A DNA stretch of 34,115 bases from Patescibacteria group bacterium (GTDB lineage Bacteria; Patescibacteriota; Microgenomatia; UBA10105; UBA927): positions 1 to 34,115 of the forward strand of contig JAMCTH010000011.1 in the NCBI GenBank assembly GCA_023379025.1, written 5' to 3'. The notes under the pieces are model-generated. The model saw only the letters and a list, made by a program, of their open reading frames with translations. It had not been told where the DNA came from and searched no databases. A program made the position numbers and the translations under genes. Shown in pieces: positions 31,437 to 34,115 of the stretch (its first letter is position 1; each line of letters opens with the position of its first letter).

Positions 31437-32510
31437 TTATGGACAGTTCCCCAACACTTCTGCTTCTCGCCGTAACACTTCGTTGACAAAACGGGTGATA
31501 TATCTCTGAGGGTTTCTGACCCCCTTCACCCCCATAAGAGCTACAAGATGAGCCGAAATTTGTCTATCTATCCAAACCTGCCACTGCGCGTACGTTTTGA
31601 CATCTACCAAATCCGGATTCACGGTCACTATCCCCTTTGTTGACCATGACTGCCAATCTTCAAACTTGGCAAGACTTGAGTCTTTCCTCTTCAATTTCCC
31701 AAACCACTCATTCCGGTCTTCAGGCGCTATTAGTTTCTTAAATTCCGGATATTGATTCATGAAATCGACAAAAACTACACCCCCATCTTTCTGAAAACCG
31801 AAACCCTGAAAATAAAGAAAATGATACCTCTCCAAAAATTTAGATAGTTGCATTCTTGTTTTGACATCGACAAACAGTGTGTCTCGTTCACCTGATCCGG
31901 GAAGTGGCGAATGGGTTCTGTCATCTGCTAAATGAACAATTTCTTGACCAACGTCATCTGTAACTAAAGTCGGCCGGCCGCTTGTCAAACGTACGAAGTG
32001 GGCAAAACTTACATGCCCGGTTTCCGCTCCTGCAATTTTCATATCGACAATTATATCCGGCGCGACACCCTGCCGCTCAAGCGTGGGCCTGATAATGCGT
32101 GCATAACACTCCTCATACGCAGAAAGAGAATATGGCTCAGTCAGCATTCCCCTTTTCCACGCTTTTCTGGCCATAATTTCTGCCGGTTTACCCATATCAT
32201 GAAGTAAAGCACCTGCCTCAATCAGGTTAGCTTGAAAACTCTCTTCTCCGAATATTGCTCGTCCGAGCACACCCGAAGATTTGGCTACTGAAATCATATG
32301 ACCCCCGATATTCGTAAAATCTTCCGTCTCGGGTTCATGGGTAAAAGGATTTTCATACCGGTAAAATTCTGCACTAGGCAGAGTCCCGAGCATCCGCAGT
32401 ATTCCCATTTCCAGAGGATGTTTAGCTTCCAAAAATTGTTGAGCAGTAATTCGATCAATCGGCTGTAATATCTCTCGTACCATAAGGTAAATGGCTCTAT
32501 AAAGATTCAA
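31437..32510 (-). CDS. HD-domain protein (putative phosphohydrolase)
   Basis: [26 protein letters not shown] (HD motif), [11 protein letters not shown]; the ORF start at 32510 is TTG, an ATG is available at 32483. Confidence 0.7.
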
Positions 32511-33385
32511 ATTCCTTTTCCGAGCTCTTCCAAGAGCTCCTTCTGCCGGCGGGAAAGGTGCGTCGGGATAGAGAGGGTAATTCTCACATATTCATCTCCC
32601 CGGCCGCCGCCCCGGAGGTGCGGGACGCCTTTCCCCCGGAGGCGGATAAAGGTGCCCGGCTGTGTCCCGGGCTGGATACGGATGTTGATCCCGCCGTCTA
32701 CCGTCGGGACGCTGACAACGGCACCAAGCGCCGCCTGGGTGAAGGTGATTGCATGATCGATGATAAGGTCATCCCCTTCCCGGCGGTATTTCTTGTCCGG
32801 ACGGACATCAATAACGATGTCAAACTCGTCGAACCGTATGCGGGAACCGGTCGTGACGCCGGCCGGGATCTTGATGGTTTTTTTGACCGAGCCTTCCCCC
32901 GCCCGGCCGCGCGGCAGGTGGATTTCCTTCGTCGTCCCCTTCACCGCATCCATGAACTCAATCGTCAGCTCATACGCTTCCCGCGGCCTCCGCCCTCCAG
33001 CACTCCTCCCGGAAAATCCGCCGCCGAAAAATTGCTCGAAGATCTCAAACGGGTCGATATAGTCACCGCCGCCACCGAACGGCATCCCGCCCTGGTTTCC
33101 GCCGCTACTATAATAGTAGGTAAACGGCCCCTGGCCTGCGGCGCCGTTTCCTGCACCGGGCTGGAACGGAGCGTGTCCGAACTGGTCGTACTGGCTCCGT
33201 TTGTTCTGATCGGAAAGGACGGCGTATGCCTCATTTATCTCTTTGAACTTTTCGTTGGCTTCCGGCTTCTTATTCCGGTCCGGGTGCCACTCGAGCGCGA
33301 GTTTCCGGTAAGCCTTTTTCAGCTCATCCGATGTAGCGTTTTTGGAAACGCCTAATATTTCATAGTAGTCGCGCGTTGTTGCCAT
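32507..33385 (-). CDS. dnaJ: DnaJ/CbpA-like co-chaperone without zinc-finger region
   Basis: J domain [34 protein letters not shown] (HPD), G/F-rich linker, C-terminal substrate-binding domains; no CxxCxGxG repeats. Confidence 0.93.
32543..32605. repeat. 63-bp perfect direct repeat, copy 2 (in dnaJ)
   Basis: Identical to 31302-31364. Confidence 0.95.
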
Positions 33386-33390
33386 ATATC

Positions 33391-33444
33391 GTTCGAGCGC
33401 TAGCGAGAACTCCTACAATATACTTCTCGCTTCGCTCGAAGAAT
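33391..33444. repeat. Palindromic repeat (hairpin) directly upstream of dnaJ start
   Basis: gttcgagcgctagcgagaac ... cttctcgcttcgctcgaagaat; arms TTCGAGCG-cta-GCGAGAA / TTCTCGC-tt-CGCTCGAA. Confidence 0.8.
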
Positions 33445-33467
33445 GTTGTTTACACAGTCCAATGAAT

Positions 33468-33490
33468 ATTGTTCGAACGCTAGTGAGAAC
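33468..33490. repeat. Palindrome half-unit (attgttcgaacgctagtgagaact), 3' flank of GIY-YIG gene
   Basis: Same family as 33752-33775 and 33834-33858. Confidence 0.8.
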
Positions 33491-33494
33491 TATC

Positions 33495-33752
33495 TTATTC
33501 ACTTTTAAATAACAACTCTTTCTTTTTTCTACTGAAATCTTTGATTTGTTTTTCCCTATTTCTAGCCTCAATTAAATCGGAAAATTCCTCTAAATAAACT
33601 AATTTTTTAAAACCGTGCTTTCCGGTAAATTTACTTCCTTGTCCGCTCTTGTGTTGTTCCATTCTCTCGTCTGGATTCCAAGTTAAGCCCGTATAATAAA
33701 ACCCATCCAAACATTCAATAATATAGACAAACCATTTCCATGGTTTCATCAT
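33495..33752 (-). CDS. GIY-YIG nuclease domain protein
   Basis: WKWFVYIIECLDGFYYTGLTWNPDERMEQHKSGQGSKFTGKHGFKKLVYLEEFSDLIEARNREKQIKDFSRKKKELL: single-domain GIY-YIG (YhbQ/URI type). Confidence 0.9.
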   Translation of the reverse strand: MMKPWKWFVYIIECLDGFYYTGLTWNPDERMEQHKSGQGSKFTGKHGFKKLVYLEEFSDLIEARNREKQIKDFSRKKKELLFKSE

Positions 33753-33891
33753 ATTGTTCGAACGGAGTGAGAACTATCTACTTTACTTCTCGCGAAGTTT
33801 ACCCCGAGACTTCTCGCCGAGAGGCTCGAAGAATATTGTTCGAACGCTAGCGAGAACTCATACAATTTACTTCTCACTGCGTTCGAAGAAT
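33752..33891. repeat. Cluster of palindromic repeat units upstream of the GIY-YIG gene
   Basis: attgttcgaacggagtgagaact (33752-), tacttctcgc...gctcgaagaat (33784-33834, interrupted by about 30 bp), attgttcgaacgctagcgagaactc...acttctcactgcgttcgaagaat (33834-33891). Confidence 0.8.
33788..33813. repeat. 26-bp direct repeat (tctcgcgaagtttaccccgagacttc), copy 1
   Basis: Identical to 34090-34115 at the window end. Confidence 0.9.
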
Positions 33892-34015
33892 AAATACAAT
33901 TATATCTCATCCGCTAGCTACAAATAAACGCGCTTCCCGCGCGCCCGCTTTCCTATTGTATCGCTTCTTAAACGCCGGATATCCGGCTAGAAGAAATAAA
34001 AATGTTTACAGTTCC

Positions 34016-34115
34016 TTACCTGATCCGTTCGACGATAGCAATAAGTCCCAAGTAATCTTCATCCCAGTAATCTCGTTGAAGAAATCCACTCTCGCGAAGT
34101 TTACCCCGAGACTTC
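34016..34115 (-). CDS. C-terminal end of an unidentified ORF truncated by the window end
   Basis: Minus-strand reading KSRGKLRESGFLQRDYWDEDYLGLIAIVERIR*; family not recognised. Confidence 0.4.
   Translation of the reverse strand, partial: KSRGKLRESGFLQRDYWDEDYLGLIAIVERIR

Follow-up and report, generated by a model that had tools for sequence, protein, structure and literature searches.

The window, a stretch of 34,115 nucleotides analysed at full length, is the entire contig C11 of a Patescibacteria genome of 1.11 Mb in 12 contigs. Its final 730 bp, upstream of dnaJ (32507..33385, minus strand), hold an array of palindromic arms that interrupts the dnaJ leader and surrounds a GIY-YIG nuclease gene (33495..33752, minus strand; 85 aa; PF01541, E 1.5e-15). 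Two kinds of arm are present: A-arms, with the foot GTTC/GAAC, at 33391-33410, 33471-33490, 33756-33774 and 33838-33857, and B-arms, with the foot CTTC/GAAG, at 33423-33441, 33810-33831 (in a long version starting at 33786) and 33870-33888. A sequence-only reading had counted four A-arms and three B-arms around the gene, one A-arm just past its stop codon and another at its start codon; all of them are there, and no position that it gave is off by more than a few bases.

On the minus strand the arms combine as follows. Unit 1 (33386..33444), a complete B-A twin-hairpin unit, adjoins the dnaJ start codon, and the A-arm directly after the GIY-YIG stop codon (33466..33491) is the right end of the gene-bearing element. 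The left side of that element is unit 3 (33752..33832), composed of the A-arm at the GIY-YIG start codon and the long-version B-arm (33786-33831). Unit 4 (33833..33892) is again a complete B-A twin-hairpin unit. When the two complete units were folded as single-strand DNA, z values of -5.0 (unit 1) and -6.1 (unit 4) were obtained and 0/200 shuffles were equally stable, which bears out the two complete hairpins proposed earlier at 33391-33444 and 33834-33891. A truncated copy of the long B-arm (34090..34115, no strand assigned) lies at the very end of the contig; C11 thus ends within an arm copy, indicating that the assembly broke at the repeat. This truncated copy, unit 3 and seven copies dispersed over the rest of the genome go beyond what the sequence-only reading had listed.

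Filled and empty sites

In the relatives of the window genome, most of which carry dnaK directly upstream, a G+C-rich inverted repeat and a TATAAT-like box stand before dnaJ, and the hairpin array is absent from this dnaK-terminator-promoter-like box-dnaJ arrangement. After a similar inverted-repeat and box remnant (about 33893-33946, minus strand), the window has the array of roughly 500 bp, which leads up to the dnaJ start. Two other sites show the same kind of difference. In most of the relatives read from the Curtissbacteria family, tmk and thyX are adjacent or close to each other, and two genomes carry the element between them; upstream of dinB the element is present in one of eight congeners. 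Presence and absence at orthologous sites show that the element inserts. The earlier reading had named empty sites and a target-site footprint as things to look for: the former exist at dnaK-dnaJ, tmk-thyX and dinB, whereas neither the filled/empty pairs nor the flanks of 45 units revealed a consistent target-site duplication.

Could the hairpins be mainly RNA signals, terminators or elements of mRNA stability around a small self-regulating nuclease gene, with the dispersed copies as ordinary repeats? The arms do adjoin start and stop codons, and the array lies in the dnaJ leader in gene orientation. However, arms with precise ends also occur at unrelated sites a long way from the gene, and both gene and arms are missing from the orthologous sites, which regulation alone does not explain. 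We regard this explanation as very improbable.

Some GIY-YIG genes at other positions deserve separate mention. In the family of the window genome, another genome, G006, has a different, arm-less GIY-YIG gene just upstream of dnaJ (L238). Four GIY-YIG genes, L011 (G000:C3:165835-169038), L050, L051 and L052, each immediately precede a complete tRNA gene (for Gln, Lys, Leu and Gln, respectively), and a lookalike of the tRNA 5′-part is found upstream of the GIY-YIG gene, clear in L011, L051 and L052 and less so in L050. These may represent a separate, tRNA-targeting type of insertion.

Four constant blocks and two stem-loops

The 74 distinct B-A units collected from all fetched loci consist of four constant blocks and three variable parts, arranged as TATTCTTCGA-[stem-loop 1]-GAGAAG-spacer-GTTCTC-[stem-loop 2]-TCGAACAATA or, with the termini included, TATT-CTTCGA-[upper 1]-GAGAAG-spacer-GTTCTC-[upper 2]-TCGAAC-AATA. 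The termini are well kept (TATT in 69/74 and AATA in 67/74), while the inner flanks vary. Within one unit the two upper parts are unrelated; they measure about 7 to 39 nt and differ in length in 61/74. Compared with letter shuffles and half-swaps, they pair strongly with themselves (B, 99 against a maximum of 67 in shuffles; A, 139 against a maximum of 88), and upper 1 and upper 2 are complementary to each other in just one of the 74 units. Because each upper part is self-complementary yet almost never complementary to its partner, each forms a stem-loop of its own, and the idea that an arm pair makes only one long hairpin was dropped. The spacer measures 1-39 nt in gene-free units, and in the gene-bearing form it is replaced by the GIY-YIG gene.

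How the constant blocks pair allows two solutions. Within the arms, the base C of the B foot pairs with G and the G of the A foot with C; in the other solution, blocks 1 and 4 pair with each other, as do blocks 2 and 3, which makes a cruciform, that is a four-way junction, with a C.C and a G.G mismatch and two variable stem-loops. In the folding predictions several units take the branched shape and another one the two hairpins, and the constant blocks vary too little to discriminate between the two pairings.

Most of the arm sites examined (39/45) are B-A doublets, located between genes as far as read by eye at several sites, with no formal scoring. Further inverted outer arms surround the twin-hairpin unit in some genomes and make larger palindromes (L001-L005, L254-L277 and L115); these outer arms read TAGAAGTTATCTCAAAT.. 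/ ..GGAGATGGCTTCTA in the window genome and GTTGAAAACCTTG.. / ..GGTTTTCAAC in genome G116.

Hairpin dispersal and the linked GIY-YIG clade

An exact arm pattern matched only two of 380 Patescibacteria genomes, both of them gene carriers, and proved too strict, so that a looser foot pattern, TATTCTTCGAN{4,34}GAGAAGT, was adopted. Across the whole 1.11-Mb window genome it gives 13 matches against 0 for the reversed control. The core hairpin recurs there at five more sites, two on C3 and one each on C4, C6 and C7, within a larger imperfect palindrome with outer arms, and two additional dispersed copies lie on C7 and C10; no GIY-YIG gene is found near these seven copies. The foot pattern occurs in 51 of 374 genomes of the class, the reversed control giving single matches in few genomes. 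Units are dispersed with differing flanks, two genomes holding 34 and 46 arms. Palindromes equally abundant with and without the GIY-YIG gene would have spoken against an association, but hairpin-positive genomes make up 12/15 of the gene carriers and 39/359 of the others (p 4e-9), and arm variants are visible in the three pattern-negative carriers. The main evidence against a simple one-gene model comes from hairpin-rich genomes without a detected clade gene, namely G443 (46), G488 (23), G432 (19) and also G449, in which the absence of the gene is uncertain because draft MAGs break at repeats.

The linkage of the arms to GIY-YIG genes that had been proposed is firm, and it concerns one clade. 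Arms lie at most 150 bp upstream of the gene in 17/17 clade members and on both sides in 14/17, compared with 0/51 for other GIY-YIG genes, many of which were taken from hairpin-rich genomes (Fisher 5.5e-12). These 17 members comprise two further genes and the 15 loci recovered by a profile search of the 374 class genomes (at least 95 bits, the next score being 82 bits), of which 15/15 have the upstream arm. The clade is mainly found in Microgenomatia, and the nearest protein relatives (60-73% identity), from Curtissbacteria, Levybacteria, Daviesbacteria and one further bacterium, all lie between the same arms (6/6). No arms were seen beside the other GIY-YIG genes of the window genome or adjacent to other GIY-YIG genes in the hairpin-rich genomes checked, and viral contigs yielded only two protein relatives, of 40-42% identity and both outside the clade.

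Read in the direction of the gene, the succession is ATTCTTCGAACGNAGTGAGAAGT - gene - AGTTCTCRCTNCGTTCGAACAAT, and the right arm often overlaps the stop codon or closely follows it. In three members the search pattern detects no right arm: L092 shows a longer variant of it, the right side of L100 is cut by a contig end, and L094 seems truly without one. In the window and in L049 the A-arm of a complete unit directly precedes the gene, instead of a lone B-arm. Arm subfamilies track protein subgroups. On the tree, the arm-bearing set occupies one side of a single branch, and arm presence requires 1 change against 15.3 in shuffles; this branch is weak (84% ultrafast bootstrap, SH-aLRT 0, near-zero length), so that a single origin of the arm-bearing set is favoured, short of proof. 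Decayed copies of the gene were also noticed, with an in-frame TGA in L046 (3007-3252) and in L089, as well as a copy with an internal deletion and intact flanking arms in L117 (1276-1501).

Two explanations would separate the hairpins from this gene. According to the first, the twin-hairpin repeats are older and spread otherwise, and a free-standing GIY-YIG homing gene cuts gene-free units and enters their spacer through arm homology. The exact position of the gene in the spacer, the existence of gene-free units and the many hairpin-bearing genomes without the gene would agree with such a parasite. So would the tmk-thyX site, since its two carriers belong to different Curtissbacteria genera and their genes, which come from different subclades, occupy almost one position, next to a near-identical left spacer; this could reflect a site preference or homing into an existing unit. 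A generic target would nevertheless not require arm subfamilies to differ with protein subfamilies, hairpins are strongly enriched in gene-carrying genomes, and no other driver of the hairpins was identified. We consider homing unlikely.

The second explanation, in which the hairpins are REP-type elements moved in trans by Y1 (RAYT/TnpA_REP) transposases and the GIY-YIG gene is a passenger, is the strongest alternative because REPINs look alike: they too are twin inverted palindromes (PMC3116915). Of 23 hairpin-positive genomes tested, 22 carry Y1_Tnp genes, and the window genome gives six matches, but these genes are nearly as common in sampled hairpin-negative genomes (16/22). Moreover, arms flank none of 20 Y1_Tnp loci whereas they do flank the GIY-YIG clade, and the conserved GTAG/CGTC tag is absent. 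A RAYT as the hairpin driver is hence unsupported, and we judge this possibility improbable. On their own account, Y1_Tnp genes are numerous in G412, G417, G603 and others, as RAYT-like open frames of about 200-270 aa reaching up to 17 per roughly 1-Mb CPR genome.

A probable small mobile element and its known counterparts

The reading that we prefer, with a probability of roughly 0.6, is that of a very small mobile element of Microgenomatia (CPR), a palindrome and nuclease system similar to REPIN/RAYT but built on a GIY-YIG enzyme. Its autonomous form, of about 310-330 bp, would consist of a left hairpin, one GIY-YIG gene (about 80-85 codons) and a right hairpin, and its non-autonomous form, found scattered between genes, of the same hairpin pair separated by 1-39 nt of spacer instead of the gene. 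The enzyme may recognise the conserved foot or the junction of the folded element and cut there, after which break repair or strand capture would place copies of the unit at new sites; the gene-bearing form would be copied in cis and gene-free units in trans, as is thought for RAYTs acting on REPINs. In the window, such an array would have been inserted into the dnaJ leader. The linkage, the conserved structure, the dispersal and the presence or absence at orthologous sites are direct observations; from them we infer that the enzyme cuts the hairpin structures and drives their spread. Clade linkage, genome enrichment and empty sites all uphold the GIY-YIG-associated dispersed palindrome system first suggested by analogy with REP/RAYT pairs.

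GIY-YIG enzymes are hydrolytic nucleases with no known strand-transfer activity, and movement of the element must therefore rely on host repair. The 85-aa protein has the features that define the superfamily, the fold (predicted model, pLDDT 93) and the catalytic-type Tyr, Tyr, Arg, His and Glu, since Y10, Y20, R30, H34 and E67 are invariant in 16 aligned clade members; dN/dS is about 0.22 (eight unsaturated pairs). Sequence and fold match UPF0213 first (1zg2, 1ywl) and then Slx1, a branched-DNA nuclease according to the structure-match entries. ANKLE1, another GIY-YIG enzyme, cleaves cruciform junctions (PMC10287932); by analogy with both, a DNA junction would fit as the substrate.

A bolder version, which we put forward tentatively and at somewhat less than even odds, is that the element represents a class of its own among prokaryotic mobile elements. 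A GIY-YIG nuclease of 80-85 aa would recognise the self-folding four-way junction of its own terminal boxes and spread both itself and gene-free cruciform units; the element would then match REPIN-RAYT with a GIY-YIG enzyme and rank with the smallest self-encoded mobile elements known. A search of the open-licence literature turned up no report of a bacterial GIY-YIG-palindrome system. If the system is independent, partnerships between palindromes and nucleases arose more than once, here on an unrelated, hydrolytic and structure-specific nuclease, and the element would be one of the smallest autonomous ones and a compact model for the spread of DNA by junction-cutting enzymes. It also accounts for some of the repeats in CPR genomes and for assembly breaks there.

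Several known systems share part of this organisation. The double-hairpin elements and GC clusters of fungal and sponge mitochondria are mobile double hairpins of similar size; they differ in sequence and genome, and we know of no fixed nuclease gene within their units. Free-standing GIY-YIG homing endonucleases are exemplified by the Seg family of phage T4. These enzymes, like the GIY-YIG ORFs inserted in CPR rRNA genes (PMC11270868), share with the present system the domain, a selfish-looking distribution and insertion between or within genes. Unlike it, they are not described as bracketed by dedicated palindromes with gene-free derivatives, while here the arms accompany the gene. IS200/IS605 elements resemble the present element in being small, in carrying an imperfect hairpin at each end and in showing no target duplication, but their usual size is more than twice its 310-330 bp or so. 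In addition, TnpA is absent here, GIY-YIG being the only gene between the arms, and the hairpins are inverted relative to each other.

Among bacterial palindrome families with a dedicated enzyme, REPINs are the best described. The likeness comprises an inverted pair of imperfect palindromes, a variable spacer, dispersal between genes and a single dedicated nuclease-type gene nearby (PMC3116915, PMC8266576), and the doublet organisation typical of REPINs is found here too, in the 39 B-A sites and 74 units described above. There are differences as well. The linked enzyme is a GIY-YIG protein and not, as in RAYTs, a Y1 HUH transposase with the features of TnpA_REP (PMC8266576), and none of the 20 Y1_Tnp loci examined is flanked by the arms. 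At the palindrome foot, where REPs are defined by GTAG or CGTC (PMC8266576, PMC3733652), there is no such tag; the units end in TATT/AATA with variable inner flanks, their conserved boxes are TATTCTTCGA/GAGAAG/GTTCTC/TCGAACAATA, and the upper stems of the paired palindromes are unrelated to each other. With two defining features missing, the cis-linked Y1 transposase and the GTAG/CGTC tag, the system is REP-like by organisation and stands outside the REP/RAYT family.
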